Below are positions 2,034 to 22,315 of a DNA stretch of 22,315 bases, in pieces. A program made the position numbers and the translations under genes. The notes under the pieces were generated by a model that was not told the origin of the DNA, ran no database searches, and was given only the letters and a program-made list of their open reading frames with translations. The number at the start of each line of letters is the position of its first letter. Positions within the stretch are counted from its first letter, which is position 1. The DNA comes from a virus, in the IMG/VR virus record IMGVR_UViG_3300045885_000314, positions 1 through 22,315 of that record, one strand, 5' to 3'.

Positions 2034-3227
2034 ATGGGCCTGTTAGAGGATTATCTCGCCGCGCAGCAGGCTAATTACCTCGCTGGGCGAAACGCGCAGC
2101 TTGGAGGGGTGAGCCCCGCCGGGACCGCTATTAGTACTCCTACGACGACCACTAATATCGAGCCTATTCTACAGGCAATGGCGGCCCAGATCCCGACTGG
2201 CGGGGTGGCCAACCCACTGCAAAATCAGTACGCAAATCGCATAGCTACAACGACGAGTCCGGCTGGAACGACAGCTACCGCGCCACAAGTCGGCGGATTG
2301 TACGGGCAGATAACGAGCGACCCAGCTACGTCGGCGCTGTTGGCGCAGAGGCTACAAGAGGCGGCGGTTTCGCGCGTTCTCAGGAGTGCTGGTCTGGGGC
2401 AACTGACGCCTCAGCCGTTCGGCACAGCTAGTACGGGTACTGAAGCTGGGACTGGTCCTGGGGCTAGAGGAGGCGATACTAGTGGTATTGGCGCAGGTTC
2501 ACCTAATACTGGAGGCGTCGGTTTGTCTGCGGGTGATGCCGTCACTGGCGGGTTTGGCGCTCTCGGTCCTGCTGCTAATGCTACATCGGGCGGCTTCACT
2601 GCCAGTTCGCTTGGCGAAGCAATAACCGGCTCTAATCCTAACGTCGGTGTGGAAGGTTTTAATGCTAGTCAGGGTATAAATCCCTCGCTGTCTTCTGGGC
2701 TGGAGGGCTTTGGCCCTACTGTCGGGTTCGGCCCAGATGTTAGTAATCCTACAGCTCTCGCGGGCGAAACTCCATCTATTAACGTTGGTGTTACTCCCAG
2801 TGGCGAGCAGGTCAGTATCAATCCTTCTACCGGCGTCGTCTCTGTCGGCGGCGAACCTGTAGGGGTGATTGGCGGTGAGACTGATGGAGGCGGTGGTGCC
2901 ACTGGTGGGGGTGGCTACGGCGGCGAGGGTATGGGCATCGGCCTCGGGGGTGTGGCAGATGGCAGCTCGAACGCGGGCATCGGCGGGCCAGCGGGGACGG
3001 GTGCTGTAGGCGGCGCGGGCGACGCGGGGCAGGGGACCGGCGGTCCCGGCGAGGGCGATCAGTTCGGCAATCAGTATGTCGTGGGCGGACGCGGTCCTCC
3101 AGATAGCAAGCGCGTGGGGCTGACCGTGTCGCCGGGCGAGCTAATCACGGTGACGCCGCCCGGCGATCCTAAGGGCCGAGGACTCGATGACATCCTGAGA
3201 ATAATGGCGACGATGCGGAGGGGCTGA
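2034..3227 (+). CDS. Gly/Thr/Ser-rich virion-type protein with tail-like C-terminus
   Basis: A 397-residue protein. The N-terminus (MGLLEDYLAAQQANYLAGRN) is helical; residues of about 30-345 are low complexity, rich in Gly, Thr, Ser, Ala and Pro, and become almost pure Gly/Ala around 275-340. The last 50 residues are ordered: VVGGRGPPDSKRVGL, then SPGELITVTPPGD. This resembles the GG.gg.DS..V.f.atPGE.V.V.tP signature that I associate with C-termini of phage tail or tape-measure-like proteins. The gene follows the preceding ORF with AGGAGCGCACG before the ATG and is followed one base later by the next gene. The function is not recognised; a structural or injected virion protein is the likeliest reading from location and tail motif. 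Confidence 0.8.
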   Translation: MGLLEDYLAAQQANYLAGRNAQLGGVSPAGTAISTPTTTTNIEPILQAMAAQIPTGGVANPLQNQYANRIATTTSPAGTTATAPQVGGLYGQITSDPATSALLAQRLQEAAVSRVLRSAGLGQLTPQPFGTASTGTEAGTGPGARGGDTSGIGAGSPNTGGVGLSAGDAVTGGFGALGPAANATSGGFTASSLGEAITGSNPNVGVEGFNASQGINPSLSSGLEGFGPTVGFGPDVSNPTALAGETPSINVGVTPSGEQVSINPSTGVVSVGGEPVGVIGGETDGGGGATGGGGYGGEGMGIGLGGVADGSSNAGIGGPAGTGAVGGAGDAGQGTGGPGEGDQFGNQYVVGGRGPPDSKRVGLTVSPGELITVTPPGDPKGRGLDDILRIMATMRRG

Positions 3228-3228
3228 C

Positions 3229-3579
3229 ATGCCTGTTAATCCAATAACTGGAGCGCCACTGCCCTATTCGCAGGGCGGGGGCGCGCCGATGGTCGGGCCG
3301 CAGCAACCTCAAGCTGCGCCAGGGCGTATGCCGATGTGGGCTGGTGGTGGCGCTAATCCAGGGTTTGGGCAGGCGCCGGGAGGGCCGCAGGGAGCGCCTC
3401 CACCAGGGATGCCCGGAGCGCCTACTGGGCCGCCAGGAATGCCGCTCGGGCTGACGCCAGAACTGCTGGCTATGATCCAGGCGCGTATGGCCAAGAATGA
3501 GTTTCGGTCGGGGCCAGAGGATAGTCTGATCCCAACCGGGGGAGGCGGGCTCGCCTCCATGAAGTCAGGAGACTACTAA
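3229..3579 (+). CDS. Pro/Gly-rich small protein ending in SGDY motif
   Basis: A 116-residue protein with an extended Pro/Gly/Met/Ala-rich region (about residues 1-78), a short predicted helix (LTPELLAMIQARMAKNEF, about 79-96) and a Gly-rich end. It terminates exactly at MKSGDY, the same C-terminal motif as in the proteins ending at 2024, 6623 and 14130. A GGAGGGGCTGAC stretch inside the end of the previous gene provides the ribosome binding site, and the two genes are one base apart. No enzymatic motif is seen. Its place just before the scaffold suggests a role in head assembly or as a minor virion protein, but this is inference from position only. Confidence 0.75.
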   Translation: MPVNPITGAPLPYSQGGGAPMVGPQQPQAAPGRMPMWAGGGANPGFGQAPGGPQGAPPPGMPGAPTGPPGMPLGLTPELLAMIQARMAKNEFRSGPEDSLIPTGGGGLASMKSGDY

Positions 3580-16159: not shown

Positions 16160-17375
16160 GTCTGGCCTCTTTGGAAGCTGGTTTGTAGCCAATATAATTG
16201 CCTTCTATCGGAACTAGTTCAAACATTCGCGAGCGGACCATTATCTCAAGCACACGCATTACTGAGTGAGCCGCAACGCGCTCCCTAAGGAAGTGGACTA
16301 TTCGGTGCTCGAGAATAGGCCTCTTTTCCTTGGCATAGAGCACCCACACGTAGTTCCAGGCCTCTTCCATCGCGACCGAGTCTCCACCCGAGGTCATTGA
16401 TTTGAAGATCTCGGGCATCTCCGTCTCGGCCTCGATGAGCCATGAGAGAGCCTCTCTGTAATGCTCCAGCCCTATCACGTGGTCTCCCGAGTGGGATATA
16501 CTGGAAATCATGCACAGTTTAAGCAGGTGTGCTGCGCGCCGTGCATTGTAGAACTGCAGTCTTATATGTGAGGGGACGGGAGGACACCCGGATTTGATCC
16601 ACTCGCGTATAGCGGCGGCAGCGGGAGTGGTGAAAGACATCTTTCCAATTTCGAGCCCGATTGTTTTAAGGTCATGCTGAAGATCAGCTTGCATTCTGGC
16701 GATGTACCCGGCATTACTATCTTCAGCAAATGGGTCTCTGACGACTTTGTCTCCCGAGTAGATGAGAATTGTTCTACTAATGAAGCCTTGATCCCAGGCC
16801 CCCGCAGGCATAACCTCATTAAGATACGAAGGAGTGCAAGCTCCAAGTAGGTTAATCTGCGGATGTAGGATTTTGATTTTAAGATCGCGCCCGCGTCTCT
16901 TCTGGTCAATGGTATATCCATCGTAGATATCCGTTAGGTTGTTCATGAGAGTTGACTCCCATGAGGGGATTAACACACCAAGCTCGCGGCAAATTACCAC
17001 AAGCGAGTTGAACTCCAGTACTGGAACCGCGTTGTTGAGATTGACGCAGCGCCGAGGCGACTCGTTCAGGGCGTCAATCAGTGACGCCGCGCTCATATCG
17101 GAGGGGCCTACGTGAAGTTCGGGTACTCCCCTGAGGAGAACTTCGGCAGGGTGGATGGCCTCGCCTTTACCCACACCAGGAGGCCCCACAAGGATTGTGT
17201 AGAGGCCAGGGTATAGGTCAGAACCCATCGTTCTGACCCAGATACGCCGTTCCATAGCTGCCGCGACCGTCGAGATAGCTGCCCACTTCCGGAGAAGGGG
17301 CGGAGAGGGTCTTATTTCAGTATACTCCAGGTAGCTATCTATCCAGTTGCCGAGTCTACGCGCGGTTGGTGCCAC
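16140..17375 (-). CDS. P-loop NTPase, DUF3987/helicase-like
   Basis: A 411-residue ATPase probably acting in phage DNA replication. Residues of about 25-50 (PPLLRKWAAISTVAAAMERR) match the family entry 'W..iS..aA.lerr'. Walker A is GPPGVGKG at 64-71. VVICRELGVLI at 126-136 looks like the Walker B strand with Glu131 but lacks the preceding Asp. INLLGACTPSYLNEVMP at about 174-190 resembles the sensor region, and Arg201 (GFISRTILIYSG) is a candidate arginine finger. The C-terminal 80 residues are helical, perhaps a winged helix. It begins with GTG and overlaps the polymerase end by 20 bases, so it is translated from the same message. Family resemblance is good; helicase activity is inferred. Confidence 0.75.
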   Translation of the reverse strand: MAPTARRLGNWIDSYLEYTEIRPSPPLLRKWAAISTVAAAMERRIWVRTMGSDLYPGLYTILVGPPGVGKGEAIHPAEVLLRGVPELHVGPSDMSAASLIDALNESPRRCVNLNNAVPVLEFNSLVVICRELGVLIPSWESTLMNNLTDIYDGYTIDQKRRGRDLKIKILHPQINLLGACTPSYLNEVMPAGAWDQGFISRTILIYSGDKVVRDPFAEDSNAGYIARMQADLQHDLKTIGLEIGKMSFTTPAAAAIREWIKSGCPPVPSHIRLQFYNARRAAHLLKLCMISSISHSGDHVIGLEHYREALSWLIEAETEMPEIFKSMTSGGDSVAMEEAWNYVWVLYAKEKRPILEHRIVHFLRERVAAHSVMRVLEIMVRSRMFELVPIEGNYIGYKPASKEARLNGGGS

Positions 17376-18870
17376 GAGTGTCTGGCCATGAGCTTAAGCC
17401 TCGGGGGTTCTCCACTCTACCGTCTTTATACTTAACCATTTTGCCCCAGTTCCATCCTACCTTGGCCTCGAGCGGGACGCTGAAAGCGCGTCCGCCCTCC
17501 AACTCAAGAACCACCTTCATAGCGGCTAAGGCCGCTGGAACGATCTCATTTTCCTTCTCCTCTGGATACTGGATTAGTATTGAGTCGTGGCATTGAAGTA
17601 AGATCTGACACATGCCTGTCCTCCACAATTGGAGGAGGCCATAGTTCATCTCATCTGCAGTCATGGACTGGCCCATGTGGGCTACAGCTTGCTTGAGAGT
17701 ATCTTTATCATCGCGTCTGCCGAAGAACCACCTCTTTCTGCCGAAAGGTGTGACAAGATAGCCATCAGTCTTAATCTGTTCCCATATCCAGTCGTGTAAC
17801 CGCGGTATTGCTGGGAATGTAGCGAAGTACTTAGGCTGGAACTCTTCAATAGTTTCCTTATCAATCTTAGTGTGCTTCGCCATCTCAAATGGCGAGCCCA
17901 AATAATTTGTTCCATGGCCCAGCACCTTGTTCATGTGTCGTACTGAATGGTGACGGTGCAGTTTTGTGCTGTCGGCAATTTCTTTATCTTTATGGAGATC
18001 TCCTGTCCACGGCAGTTCCGGATTAGAAAGTCTGCTAACCGTTGTATGTAGGTCTCCAGACTCACAGGCGTCGAGATACTTGGGGTCACGGAATACATTC
18101 CAACAGAGTGCTCCGATATTTCTGGCATCTGCCTGCTCCAAGTCTATGTTTGCGAACTTGTATCCTGGGTCTGGGATGAACATCCTTCGCAAGCGCTCCT
18201 CAATATTCTGCACGTTTCCGCCAGTTCCGAAGTCATTAAGGCTGCTTGAAAAGCGGCCTGTTGTAGTGCCTGCGATGTTATAGCTCGTCCGTAGTCGGCC
18301 GTCGGCGTCAATCTCTGTTTCAAGGACACCAATCTTTTTTCCAATATCTCGCAAAGCGAGGATATGCGAGATGATTGGCTGGGAGAGAAAATGTGCTGCC
18401 CAGAGCCGCTCGAGGGCGTCCCGGTTGACTGTAGGGACGAGTTCGCCGCGCTCGTTTCTCCTACGGATTGGAGGTATTTTGAGAATGTCGTAGAGCACAC
18501 TTGCAACAAATTGGTTAGATCTCCACGCCTTAGTTTTTCCACTGTCTCGGAACTCAGCGTATCCAACGCCATCGTGAATGACTGAATAGAGTTGCCGTTC
18601 GAGTCGAGTAGTATCATCCTTATATAGTGTGAGGGCTCGTTTTCGTTCGTGCTCATCGATTAAGACTCCTCTCATGTTCATTTCGAGCACCGGACCCTGA
18701 AGCTCGCGCGACAGAGCATAGGTGGCGCTGGTGTTGTTGTCAAGTTGGGGGAGAAGCTCTCCCAATACCTCGTGTGTGACGCAGCAGTCTAGGCCGTTAT
18801 AAACCCACAATTTTTCAGTCTCTGACTTCAGAGTGTCAGGACGCAGAAGATCAGTGTGGATCGCTCTCAT
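17356..18870 (-). CDS. Family A DNA polymerase, starting inside the exonuclease domain
   Basis: A 504-residue polymerase with intact catalytic core. Motif A is NIDLEQADAR with Asp243. The O-helix region RHMNKVLGHGTNYLG carries Arg311, Lys315 and Tyr323. Motif C is QCHDSILI with His428-Asp429. TPFGRKRWFFG lies before it. TTTGRFSSS (202-210) and LRRMFIPDPGYKF are also typical. The N-terminus is not a complete exonuclease domain: residues 22-36 (WVYNGLDCCVTHEVL) are the Exo III motif, whereas Exo I and Exo II lie on a separate ORF 1 kb upstream (19893-20927). The start at 18870 is chosen because AGGAG at 18877-18881 is 6 bases upstream and the ATG overlaps the previous stop; the frame remains open to 18972, but that part is inside other genes. 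Confidence 0.92.
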   Translation of the reverse strand: MRAIHTDLLRPDTLKSETEKLWVYNGLDCCVTHEVLGELLPQLDNNTSATYALSRELQGPVLEMNMRGVLIDEHERKRALTLYKDDTTRLERQLYSVIHDGVGYAEFRDSGKTKAWRSNQFVASVLYDILKIPPIRRRNERGELVPTVNRDALERLWAAHFLSQPIISHILALRDIGKKIGVLETEIDADGRLRTSYNIAGTTTGRFSSSLNDFGTGGNVQNIEERLRRMFIPDPGYKFANIDLEQADARNIGALCWNVFRDPKYLDACESGDLHTTVSRLSNPELPWTGDLHKDKEIADSTKLHRHHSVRHMNKVLGHGTNYLGSPFEMAKHTKIDKETIEEFQPKYFATFPAIPRLHDWIWEQIKTDGYLVTPFGRKRWFFGRRDDKDTLKQAVAHMGQSMTADEMNYGLLQLWRTGMCQILLQCHDSILIQYPEEKENEIVPAALAAMKVVLELEGGRAFSVPLEAKVGWNWGKMVKYKDGRVENPRGLSSWPDTRGTNRA

Positions 18871-19049
18871 GGCGCGCTCCTGATGGCGTAACGCGCTAGG
18901 AACTCGCGTAACTCTGCAATTCGCTGCGGAGTATTCGATGCTGTAACGATCTCGTGGAAAGGATCCGGGCAAGGCTGGACCTCGCCTTCATACTGTATCG
19001 CTGGGTGCAGATGCGGGTACGGTGAGTCGCATTTCGGACAATTAGTCAT
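18867..19049 (-). CDS. Tiny Cys-containing protein C between exonuclease and polymerase
   Basis: A 60-residue protein beginning MTNCPKCDSPYPHLHP. A CPKC pair, nearby His residues and one later Cys (QPCPDPFHE) suggest a small zinc-binding knuckle, though the usual second CxxC is absent. The C-terminus, REFLARYAIRSAP, ends with the IRSA peptide also found at the ends of the two preceding genes. Start (overlap with the previous stop) and end (overlap with the polymerase ATG) are both ATGA. AGGAG within the end of the upstream gene is its ribosome binding site. Function unknown. Confidence 0.7.
   Translation of the reverse strand: MTNCPKCDSPYPHLHPAIQYEGEVQPCPDPFHEIVTASNTPQRIAELREFLARYAIRSAP
18868..18888 (-). 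repeat. Junction repeat, copy 3 (diverged)
   Basis: Twenty-one bases agreeing with copy 2 at 19 positions. It contains the polymerase ATG, the AGGAG ribosome binding site (18877-18881) and the codons for the shared C-terminal IRSA peptide of the preceding gene. Confidence 0.7.
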
Positions 19050-19643: not shown

Positions 19644-19889
19644 CTAGTCGCAGTAATCAGCGAACGATCGGTAAACCAATGTTCCGTCAGCCCACCATCT
19701 ACGCGGCGGCGGCTCATCACCTTTCCACCGCAGCTCTTCGGGGTAATCAGAGGCGACATACTCCATCACGCACTTCTCGCCTCGGTGCGGATTGATGCAG
19801 CCTTCACCGCCCGGACAACTCTTCATCGTGCAGTGACGCTCAACACTCATGCGATCCTCCACAAAGGGCCGATGATCTGGGTCACTCAT
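19644..19889 (-). CDS. Small Cys/Trp-rich protein directly after UDG-exonuclease
   Basis: An 81-residue protein. The centre, RHCTMKSCPGGEGCINPHRG, followed by EKC, has four Cys and two His, compatible with a small metal-binding knuckle. The C-terminal half is Trp/Tyr/Arg-rich (EPPPRRWWADGTLVYRSFAD) and ends in YCD. GGAGG before the ATG at 19889 (8-base spacing) lies over the stop of the preceding gene. An internal ATG at 19850 also has GGAGG at 5 bases, so two products of 81 and 68 residues are possible. It is the first of four tiny genes separating the exonuclease and polymerase parts. Function unknown. Confidence 0.65.
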   Translation of the reverse strand: MSDPDHRPFVEDRMSVERHCTMKSCPGGEGCINPHRGEKCVMEYVASDYPEELRWKGDEPPPRRWWADGTLVYRSFADYCD

Positions 19890-19892
19890 CCC

Positions 19893-20927
19893 TTAGTCCT
19901 CCTTCTTAAACGTCTCTTTGTGCTTCAGCCGTACGGTCAGCTTCCAGGCGGCTTCGTCAGTGTAAACAGACCCAAGGTAATCAAGACCCTTCGGAGCTTC
20001 TGGTTGAAGCGCATGATGGAGAAGCATAGTATCGTGCTCGCAACCAGCAAAAGGTATACCATAACCTCGCCAAACCCTGTGAATGTCGAACATGCCATTC
20101 TGAAAGACCTTCTGTGGTAGAGGCATGGCCAAGATGCGCCGTATCCATCGCCAAACGGCCAGCTCGTCCTCCAGGGTCGGCCAGTACGACCACCCCGGCT
20201 TCCGTGGGTCCTCGATCGGAACGACCAGAGCCACTTGTGGCGAGGGCGCGAACCCTATACAGGTGATCTGATCGTTCCGAGTCTCGATATCCACCGCCAT
20301 CATTCTTGAGGGGAGGATGAATTTTTCCTCGAACCAGGGGAGTTCACAAAGGGCGGGCTCGATGTAGACTATTCGCTTGGGCCGTCGGATCTCTGGAAAT
20401 TCTGCTTCTCGGCGTGCTTTTTGGAGATCGAGGACAGTAACGTGTCGTTCGCTATAGCCTCCTTGAAGGATGTAGCTGGGGTGGAAGGTTGGGAGGACTT
20501 TGAGCCCTGGAACGGTTCTACTTTCAGCAACAGCCCCCCGGAGCTTGGAGATCCTGCCGTCACCGAGTAGTGCCCAGGCGGCAGTTCCGCCAAGAGCAAC
20601 TGCAATATTCGGCTTAATCGATTTAAGCTCTCCATAGAGTCGCTCGATTTCGCCAAGGTACTCGTCACGTATATATTTTCCGCTGGAGAGAGGGGGGAGT
20701 CCATGCTTTACCTCCTTCTTGGATGCGCAGAGGTTATCCACCTTGTTGGTGGGCCTCGGCCGCAGGTTGAAACAATTCGTTAGGTAGCACTCGTGCCGCG
20801 CGATGCCCGCCTCTTTGAGCATCGTGTTCAACTGCCACCCCGCCGGGCCGACGAATGGTTTTCGTTCTCGTTCTTCGTGTTCTCCGTAAGCTTCTCCTAC
20901 GATCACAATTTTATACACTGGAAGCAT
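19893..20927 (-). CDS. UDG-superfamily domain fused to N-terminal part of a 3'-5' exonuclease
   Basis: A 344-residue protein. Residues 1-175 are a uracil-DNA glycosylase-type domain: GEAYGEHEERERKPFVGPAG at 11-30 (water-activating motif region), YLTNCFNLRPRP at 48-59, FHPSYIL at 148-154 (second motif). No complete set of four Fe-S cysteines is seen. Residues of about 205-325 are a DnaQ-like exonuclease with Exo I DIET (Asp213, Glu215) and Exo II NGMFD (Asp281), then HDTMLLHHAL and GLDYLGSVYTDE. The protein stops at LKHKETFKKED, before the Exo III motif, which is on the polymerase ORF. SPO1-type phage polymerases are known to carry UDG, exonuclease and polymerase in one chain, so this is the N-terminal part of such an enzyme. 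Whether the glycosylase domain is active is not known. Confidence 0.87.
   Translation of the reverse strand: MLPVYKIVIVGEAYGEHEERERKPFVGPAGWQLNTMLKEAGIARHECYLTNCFNLRPRPTNKVDNLCASKKEVKHGLPPLSSGKYIRDEYLGEIERLYGELKSIKPNIAVALGGTAAWALLGDGRISKLRGAVAESRTVPGLKVLPTFHPSYILQGGYSERHVTVLDLQKARREAEFPEIRRPKRIVYIEPALCELPWFEEKFILPSRMMAVDIETRNDQITCIGFAPSPQVALVVPIEDPRKPGWSYWPTLEDELAVWRWIRRILAMPLPQKVFQNGMFDIHRVWRGYGIPFAGCEHDTMLLHHALQPEAPKGLDYLGSVYTDEAAWKLTVRLKHKETFKKED
20880..20921 (-). repeat. Second copy of UDG start peptide (recoded)
   Basis: Fourteen codons for PVYKIVIVGEAYGE in the UDG gene. They match the peptide PIYKIVLVGEAWGE encoded at 21319-21360 at 11 residues, but only 3 of those 11 codons are identical; the other 8 differ at the third base. 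Confidence 0.9.
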
Positions 20928-21396
20928 TGCGATACCTCCTTACAACCTCAAGAGCTTCTTCTTCAGAAGTATACGAGCCTAGGTTTATTCTCACTCCATT
21001 AACGAAGGGCCTGACTCTATACCTGTTACCATGTCTCTCTATTATTCGAGCACTCTTGCTTCTATAAGAATTAAGGGCATTTCCTCTTTTAGAGACAAGA
21101 CGTAAGTTTTCTTTTCTATTGTCTAGTGTATTTTCGTTGATGTGGTCAACTATAGTTCCATCTCCTTTTGTGAGCTGGAGAATAAATCTGTGGAGAAGAA
21201 CAGTCCCGTATTTAGGATCTTTTCTCATAACCCTAAATCTACCATCTTCCTGGCGAAATACGCACCAGGTATACGGAGAGACTCGCGGCCAGTCCTCCTC
21301 ATCTATGAGGACTGTTCGCTCGCCCCAAGCCTCGCCAACGAGAACTATCTTATAGATTGGATCAGCCACGTCTCTGGCTTTTGGAATATCGCTCAT
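20911..21396 (-). CDS. HNH-AP2 homing-type endonuclease with UDG N-terminal fragment
   Basis: A 161-residue protein. Residues 1-26 are not HNH sequence: PIYKIVLVGEAWGE (13-26) is the start of a UDG domain, interrupted right at its catalytic motif. Residues of about 28-110 are an HNH endonuclease of the phage homing type (TVLIDEEDWPRVSPYTW; LLHRFILQL at 67-75; DHINENTLDNRKENLRL at 84-100; a following NALNSY). Residues of about 119-157 form an AP2-like DNA-binding repeat (HGNRYRVRPFVNGVRINLGS, then YTSEEEALE). The stop lies 17 bases inside the downstream UDG gene. Composition is more AT-rich than most neighbours, consistent with recent arrival. The start (21396) overlaps the previous stop (TAATG); AGGA is a weak binding site. 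Confidence 0.88.
   Translation of the reverse strand: MSDIPKARDVADPIYKIVLVGEAWGERTVLIDEEDWPRVSPYTWCVFRQEDGRFRVMRKDPKYGTVLLHRFILQLTKGDGTIVDHINENTLDNRKENLRLVSKRGNALNSYRSKSARIIERHGNRYRVRPFVNGVRINLGSYTSEEEALEVVRRYRNASSV
20935..20941 (-). promoter_or_regulatory. Near-perfect ribosome binding site for the UDG restart
   Basis: AAGGAGG, 7 bases before the ATG at 20927, lies inside the last codons of the HNH gene. It fixes the UDG start and allows translation after the endonuclease ORF. Confidence 0.85.
21319..21360 (-). repeat. First copy of UDG start peptide (in HNH gene)
   Basis: Fourteen codons for PIYKIVLVGEAWGE fused in frame to the HNH domain. See the recoded partner at 20880-20921. Confidence 0.9.
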
Positions 21397-21584
21397 TATA
21401 GATTTACTTCCTGTTGGAACCAGCTACTGAACTCAACAAGAGCTTTCTTTTCTTCATCATTAGCTAGCCTCCAGATATCACCATAGACAACTCCTGGTCC
21501 AAAATCTTCAGAGGCTGCATCGTTGACAGTCTCGCGGATCAGTGTGATTAGATCAGCGTACCGCCGCGTTTCGGTACTAGGCAT
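21396..21584 (-). CDS. Small hypothetical protein
   Basis: A 62-residue acidic, probably helical protein: TRRYADLITLIRETVNDAAS, then VVYGDIWRLANDEEKKALVE, and FSSWFQQEVNL at the end. No motif is recognised. Its start lies 8 bases inside the methyltransferase gene, downstream of GAAGGAGAAGG within the last methyltransferase codons, and its stop overlaps the HNH start. Both couplings and the clean frame support a real gene. Function unknown. Confidence 0.65.
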   Translation of the reverse strand: MPSTETRRYADLITLIRETVNDAASEDFGPGVVYGDIWRLANDEEKKALVEFSSWFQQEVNL

Positions 21585-22314
21585 GTTCCTTCTCCTTCTG
21601 GGCCTCGGCCGCCTTAGCCAGCTTTCGCGCCCGCTTCAGTGCATCACGAGCTAGTCCACAGAACTCGGGGTTGATTTCGAGCCCAAGCACAATTTTAGCG
21701 CCAAGCGACTCAGCCGCTCGCAAGGCACTTCCACTGCCACATGTGGGGTCGAGGAGAATTGTATTCTCGTCAACGAGCATCCGGAAGAAGTGCCGCAGCA
21801 TCGGCTCCGGTTTTTCAGACATGTGTTTGTCCCGAACTGTCGGTGCTGCATAAGCGTTAGCAACAGGGCTAACAATCTTGCGATCTCCCTTTGATCCAAA
21901 GAGACAAGTTTCGTATATTTGTCTCGGGCCACGTTCGGGGTCTGGTATGATACCGACGCCATCGCTTTTCATCCATATGAGTGGTAGAGGATTGATGTCC
22001 CAGCCCATCGCCTCGAGGGCCTGGACTGTGGGCTCGTAGAGCCGCTCGTCGCGCTTACGCATAGCGAACCAGAACATGAGATGGGCCGAGGGTGTAGTGT
22101 GGTACTTGGTCGCGTGCGCGAGTGACTCCATCAGCGCCTCCCAAGTCGAGCGACTGTCCTCATAGCCTCCGTGCGCTGGTGCCGCACCCTGGACGAAAGT
22201 GTCCGCCCCTATTCCATAGGGAAAATCGCAGTGAATGAAATTGAAACGTGGAGATACGTGCATCAGCGTCCAATCATGGAAATCTACGTTGAGGATGCTC
22301 TCCGTCTCGTCCTC
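21577..22314 (-). CDS. DNA methyltransferase (N6-adenine/N4-cytosine, beta order), 5' end outside window
   Basis: SAM-dependent DNA methyltransferase. The frame is open to the right edge; the ATG at 22263 is internal, because the upstream codons (ending HDWTL) lead smoothly into the domain. Counting from that ATG, motif IV is CDFPYG at 12-17, a DFPY variant of the usual DPPY. MFWFAMRKRDERL lies at 63-75. HMSEKPEPMLRHFFRMLV at about 147-164 corresponds to the region before motif I, and motif I is LDPTCGSGSALRAAESLG at 171-188, followed by LGLEINPEFC. Motif IV before motif I defines the beta arrangement. The C-terminus is a Lys/Ala/Glu helix. No restriction enzyme is adjacent, so it is likely an orphan phage enzyme protecting its own DNA (inference). 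Confidence 0.88.
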   Translation of the reverse strand, partial: EDETESILNVDFHDWTLMHVSPRFNFIHCDFPYGIGADTFVQGAAPAHGGYEDSRSTWEALMESLAHATKYHTTPSAHLMFWFAMRKRDERLYEPTVQALEAMGWDINPLPLIWMKSDGVGIIPDPERGPRQIYETCLFGSKGDRKIVSPVANAYAAPTVRDKHMSEKPEPMLRHFFRMLVDENTILLDPTCGSGSALRAAESLGAKIVLGLEINPEFCGLARDALKRARKLAKAAEAQKEKEHA

Positions 22315-22315
22315 T

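Follow-up and report, generated by a model that had tools for sequence, protein, structure and literature searches.

Probable intronless homing of an HNH-AP2 endonuclease gene into a phage UDG gene, with replacement of the gene start

The start of a phage uracil-DNA glycosylase (UDG) gene appears to have been replaced by homing: we judge it probable that a free-standing HNH-AP2 homing endonuclease gene entered by intronless homing at the conserved UDG catalytic motif, and that the 5' end of the target was exchanged in the process. The window (the whole stretch of DNA analysed, a 22.3 kb virus record of a soil phage of the P22-portal type) carries an HNH reading frame that opens as a UDG and runs directly into an intact UDG gene that starts afresh. 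Intronless homing with co-conversion is established for phages (PMC2988022).

Results and Discussion

Organization of the locus

Genes of the region lie on the minus strand in the order methyltransferase, 62-aa ORF, HNH ORF, UDG-exonuclease ORF, small ORF, family A polymerase and DUF3987 protein, with the following features:

21577..22315, minus: N6/N4 DNA methyltransferase gene (Pfam N6_N4_Mtase 8.6e-13), running off the contig
21396..21584, minus: 62-aa ORF, overlapping the HNH ORF by ATGA
20911..21396, minus: HNH ORF, 161 aa; residues 1-26 are a UDG start, followed by HNH-AP2
21319..21396, minus: copy A, resident-type UDG 5' fragment; the first 26 codons of the HNH ORF, up to the HNH junction at ...GEAWGE
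20911..21318, minus: HNH-AP2 endonuclease core (HNH_3 6.5e-11; G+C 0.42 vs 0.556 for the genome)
20935..20941, minus: Shine-Dalgarno AAGGAGG for the UDG restart, within the HNH 3' coding end
20856..20927, minus: copy B, putatively imported UDG 5' tract MLPVYKIVIVGEAYGEHEERERKP; codons 1-24, G+C 0.417
19893..20927, minus: restarted intact UDG gene, 344 aa; UDG domain (residues 6-156) plus 3'-5' exonuclease-like domain
17356..18972, minus: family A DNA polymerase gene, separate (Pfam DNA_pol_A 7.3e-32)

The methyltransferase is the conserved left neighbour of the UDG gene, a ~70-76% identical homologue lying upstream of UDG in ~40 relatives. The 62-aa ORF between methyltransferase and HNH gene (21396-21584) has a lower G+C (0.455), and gave no Pfam match and no homologue in any relative examined. 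The UDG ORF matches Pfam UDG at 2.4e-22, and DNA_pol_A_exo1 weakly (E 0.0055, below the cut-off). An earlier note on this DNA, made from the sequence, had named a "polymerase/UDG gene" as the target; UDG it is, but the gene is a UDG-exonuclease gene, separate from the polymerase gene across the whole phage clade (17356-20927 in the window, and relatives).

The AAGGAGG, seven bases before the UDG ATG, is part of the HNH coding sequence, whose stop TAA falls within the UDG Tyr-Lys codons TATAAA. Nuclease stops (TAA/TAG) are placed within UDG Tyr-Lys/Arg codons (TATAAA/TATAGA) in the window (20911-20927) and in two related contigs, L012 (492-502) and L033 (3992-4005).

The two UDG starts

The HNH ORF opens with the UDG start PIYKIVLVGEAWGE (fuller N-terminus MSDIPKARDVADPIYKIVLVGEAWGE); its first 26 residues end IYKIVLVGEAWGE, and HNH-AP2 sequence begins at Arg27. 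The intact UDG restarts at 20927 with PVYKIVIVGEAYGE (ORF N-terminus MLPVYKIVIVGEAYGE). A recount confirmed both the arrangement and the figures given earlier, copies A and B being identical at 11/14 residues and different in 8/11 of the shared codons; nucleotide identity is 29/42, the longest identical run 5 nt, and the contention that this is no fresh tandem duplication is supported. When each HNH N-terminal region was compared with the start of the next gene at 171 HNH loci, the window gave a local score of 64, against a maximum of 42 in a null of 2041 mismatched pairs; the likeness of the HNH start to the UDG start is not due to chance.

Among HNH-less pairs with divergence elsewhere, 58% (sd 18%) of comparable codons are different, such that 8/11 is ordinary for the UDG family and the count, taken alone, speaks for old related copies and not for deliberate recoding. 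The codon differences between copies A and B do not exceed those of other diverged relatives, and so are no proof of selection for resistance; we rejected adaptive recoding beyond neutral divergence for this pair, since neutral divergence suffices.

A resident-like and a putatively imported start

A tblastn-confirmed scan of IMG/VR yielded 53 relatives, and forty-odd related phage contigs carry an uninterrupted UDG. In relatives of the same clade the unbroken UDG starts at about (M)-YKIALVGEAWGEHEERER, directly after the methyltransferase. Copy A matches the relatives' consensus UDG start (YKIALVGEAWGE) at 11/12 residues and, over the 12-codon motif, has a mean nucleotide identity of 0.758 to 24 HNH-less lineages, whose own range is 0.67-0.79; the corresponding value for copy B, 0.647, is below that of every one of the 24. 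Copy A thus looks like the resident UDG start that an imported block would have displaced, and copy B like a foreign one, an assignment of ancestry that the earlier note had proposed to settle by comparison with HNH-less relatives.

Base composition draws the same boundary. G+C is 0.419 in the HNH core and 0.417 in UDG codons 1-24, against 0.55 in the remaining UDG and 0.556 in the methyltransferase. A changepoint follows codon 24 (permutation p <=0.0005): past Lys-Pro 23-24, third-position G+C rises from 0.20 to 0.96, although it varies along the remainder of the UDG gene too. The common low G+C and the codon-24 changepoint make the HNH gene and ~24 UDG codons look like a single imported block, and the proposal that a foreign 5' end restored the UDG is supported by this composition and by the outlying copy B motif. 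All empty relatives of the window UDG are at most about 70% nucleotide identical, so that the donor tract is recognized by composition and not from a near-isogenic pair.

We sought an AT-rich donor among relatives with GEAYGE (L050, L051, L078-L093), which have no HNH upstream. Searches of bacterial genomes returned only distant UDGs, and a pattern scan for other instances of VGEAWGE joined to a following Arg or Ser codon gave just ordinary UDGs or noise.

The nuclease family and the modelled fusion

The window HNH protein matches HNH_3 (PF13392) at residues 67-107 (6.5e-11), its only Pfam match, and shows no homology to WHO/HO proteins. The motifs LHR, VDHIN and LDNR, which hold the conserved His, Asp-His and Asn, are kept across 42 homologues. 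A C-terminal AP2 domain is identified by the family profile, whose PDB matches are AP2 domains (plant AP2/ERF structures, E 1.6e-15) and the homing enzyme I-HmuI; the window protein by itself gave no AP2 match in Pfam, and a PDB fold search with the whole model found local AP2 matches but no significant one. A single-protein HNH scan of IMG/VR returned 4 weak matches, and the closest relative of the window HNH core is only 45% identical.

In an AlphaFold2 model of the fused protein (41 homologues, pLDDT 86.6), the UDG-derived IYKIVLVG is predicted to form beta strand 1 (pLDDT about 93) and to pair as a hairpin with the following strand, which belongs to the nuclease itself; residues 2-9 (numbering from Ser2) are disordered. 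Homologues have a similar first strand at their N-termini (MKxIPLTxG), and the model makes the fusion of copy A to the nuclease structurally plausible.

The UDG start is a hot spot for HNH insertion

Overlap with the UDG start is seen for different HNH genes in L012, L033 (with six relatives) and L146/L147. Those of L012 and the L033 group belong to another Pfam family (PF01844), that of L146/L147 is another HNH_3 gene, and a sister of the window HNH (45% identical) occupies the same place at the UDG start in L117. The UDG start is a hot spot for HNH insertion.

Between close relatives, the nuclease may be present or absent at one site. L012 and its nuclease-free counterpart L011 are nearly identical to the left of the nuclease; in UDG, identity is 73% over codons 1-138 beside the nuclease and 97.8% over codons 139-340. 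This divergent segment of 138 codons is a clear co-conversion tract, the mark of homing. In L033, compared with L032, 8 of the first 12 UDG codons differ, all synonymously, against 53/328 elsewhere (Fisher p 2e-4), which is suggestive of a 12-codon tract that also arose through co-conversion; L033 and its relatives are mosaic elsewhere, with a second cluster of differences near codon 250. With lengths of 12, 24 and 138 codons, the tracts look more like products of repair than like a designed cassette of fixed size. A Trp-to-Tyr change in the UDG motif was found in 3/5 nuclease-bearing cases vs 6/49 (p 0.028), but the test was post hoc and two of the five have nearly the same nuclease, so that the change is only a hint of HNH presence.

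In L117, Ns lie at the UDG start (1338-1500), many of them at third codon positions, along with a frameshift. They apparently reflect a merged strain mixture, and the codons there are unusable for comparison.

Probable homing that replaced a gene start

These observations are best accommodated by a donor phage in which the nuclease gene lay directly upstream of a diverged UDG. The nuclease would have cut or nicked the recipient UDG at or near GEAWGE, and repair would have copied the nuclease gene together with the donor UDG 5' end before returning, by way of homology, to the recipient UDG near codon 24. At the opposite joint, copy A, the broken UDG start of the recipient, would have met the nuclease gene in frame through short homology (TGGG.CGA.C codons), giving the nuclease the resident UDG start, first beta strand included; on this conservative account the left joint is accidental. 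In copy B the codons differ and Tyr stands for the motif Trp; it would keep the UDG whole while probably being uncuttable.

The scenario first put forward, invasion by an HNH gene at the conserved catalytic motif with the 5' fragment left fused to the nuclease, is supported and was right in outline. Its "recoded" repair holds in part: the start was replaced by homologous sequence, but not by a purpose-made one, and what best accounts for the "recoded" start is co-conversion that brought in the diverged start of the donor phage's own gene. "Repair" is accordingly better called replacement of the gene start by donor sequence. Homing of this kind explains the mosaic 5' end of this UDG gene, and would allow entry into an essential-type gene without breaking it, the element bringing a substitute start; it also shows how a nuclease can gain a new N-terminus from its target.

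A second fused start, and comparison with WHO elements

Among the 171 HNH loci, one other stands clear of the null maximum of 42: L265 (score 53; the same contig as L326). At 2450..3348 of this contig, from an unrelated phage, an HNH-AP2 gene is fused to the start of its downstream neighbour; the nuclease begins MEAISGTRRAM-KEIPLSGG, the next gene begins MNAISGTRRSMREM, and 6/10 shared codons differ between fused start and restart. No empty relatives of L265 were found in phage records, the gene N-terminus not being conserved there, and each of the two fused cases rests on one contig. At the L265 junction the nuclease's own ATGAAGGAA meets the target's ATGCGTGAA; similarly, the N-terminus of the L117 nuclease, TGGGACGAACAG (the native form of the window family), resembles the UDG motif TGGGGCGAGCAC. 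With both junctions at points of nuclease/target likeness, we infer that short-homology joining is the simplest account of the two in-frame fusions.

L350 (score 49) was rejected as a capture on account of its Arg-rich composition. At L253/L307, which came up in duplicate-start screens, two HNH-type starts lie near each other in the same phage locus; these were set aside as tandem or second HNH copies.

A close parallel in anatomy is with the yeast WHO elements (Torulaspora, Lachancea), which home into FBA1 and replace its 3' end with a resistant version, the leftover truncated fragment serving as homology (PMC7282813). Copy A, HNH and copy B, as well as L265, show the same components: a truncated target fragment, an endonuclease and a divergent replaced end. 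As in WHO elements, the endonuclease lies between a full gene with a divergent replaced end and the truncated old end, neither intron nor intein is involved, and the target gene evolves as a chimera (PMC7282813). WHO elements act at the 3' end of a eukaryotic gene, using an intein-zinc-finger nuclease unfused to the fragment, and both cleavage and resistance have been shown (PMC7282813); the window case, known from its sequence, concerns the 5' end of a phage gene and an HNH-AP2 nuclease whose reading frame continues that of the fragment. Given the shared anatomy and the lack of homology to WHO/HO proteins, the window element may work like WHO but is not one.

It follows that the fused fragment could be a working part: a left homology arm and a borrowed translation start for the nuclease, refreshed with recipient sequence at each homing, the mobile unit then comprising arm, nuclease and resistant UDG start. 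Such a plan would mirror the yeast scheme at the 5' end, and L265 repeats it in another gene. The L117 nuclease, moreover, has an N-terminus of the same Tyr-to-Thr length, aligning without gaps (MTYRLIIKSKRWDE vs MTYKIALVGEAWGE), and among 170 other HNH proteins it scores highest for likeness to the UDG start (30, the next 26), as if it were an old copy A. But at 21/42 nt the likeness is weak, and the first strand common to HNH proteins in general (MKxIPLTxG) could account for it; the nucleases of L012, L033 and L146 lack a UDG fragment, and the plan occurs in only 2/171 HNH loci. We therefore regard a recurrently working fragment as unlikely, if conceivable. The N-termini of HNH relatives, proposed earlier as a check, give a mixed answer in that the L117 sister keeps the place and the N-terminal length while no longer being recognisably UDG.

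By analogy with WHO, we tentatively suggest, while thinking it rather doubtful, a phage structural class of homing elements at gene starts, in which an HNH-AP2 nuclease takes the truncated start of its target as N-terminus. Members of this class might use the fragment as translation start, first beta strand and left homology arm, and carry a diverged, cleavage-resistant replacement start, a proposal we hold equally loosely. If true, the class would be nature's equivalent of "home and rescue" gene drives. L265 suggests that the plan could be sought across phage genomes simply by asking whether a nuclease begins like the gene that follows it.

Other explanations

The preferred reading, homing that replaced the gene start, can be set against three others besides the WHO-like one. 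That homing played no part, and that a single illegitimate end joining or duplication was followed by drift with recoding of the downstream copy, is improbable: the window case does occur in one contig only, but the tract stops sharply at codon 24 with nuclease composition although the peptide is still encoded by both copies, and insertion recurs at the UDG start with other HNH families and in L265. An assembly chimera of two strains is more improbable still. The junction does lie about 1 kb from the contig end, and the related contig L117 has strain-mixture Ns at its UDG start; against this, the in-frame, overlapping arrangement of the ORFs is also that of L117, the plan recurs in L265, and the copies share no run >5 nt, which leaves no word by which an assembler could have bridged them. 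Splicing or bypass of the insert (HNH and copy B being removed as a group I intron, as an intein or by a translational hop) is scarcely credible. The duplicated peptide does lie on both sides of the insert, where landing sites would be expected; but Rfam gave no intron match at E<5 over 19800..22315 (in keeping with the intron-less character claimed at the outset), Pfam searches showed no intein domain, copy B is equipped with a strong ribosome site and a start of its own, and HNH coding fills the insert.

Relation to other mobile nucleases

Homing that replaces a gene start also has much in common with the mORFs of fungal mitochondria (Allomyces, Glomus atp6 and others; PMC3630166): an inserted nuclease ORF with a divergent end-replacing copy, a native end left over, and largely synonymous divergence (PMC3630166). 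mORFs bring foreign C-termini, use LAGLIDADG or GIY-YIG nucleases and reside in organelles (PMC3630166), whereas in the window the left-over end supplies the nuclease start. With the T4-type seg/mob genes, as treated in the available part of PMC2988022, the window shares a free-standing phage nuclease beside an essential gene, flank co-conversion and (for mob) HNH chemistry. The same part describes mob/seg genes as intergenic or gene-splitting (mobE in nrdA of Aeh1, mobA) and, unlike the window, no fused fragment with a duplicated restart. Phage IPA-HNH (HNH-AP2) homing endonucleases, in the portion of PMC10448857 available, have the HNH-AP2 architecture and often lie near DNA polymerase genes; there they are free-standing beside genes, and that portion describes no capture of a gene start such as the window has.

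In the literature searched, which mostly excludes subscription journals, we found no report of such an arrangement in phages; as far as we found, gene-end replacement by homing is described for yeast nuclei and fungal mitochondria, not for phages. The window offers a testable phage system for gene-end replacement by homing.

The polymerase start of the same operon is a second hot spot in relatives. HNH genes lie directly upstream of it in L008 (2014-2484), L013 (5609-6040), L022/L023 and L014/L016, and several overlap it.
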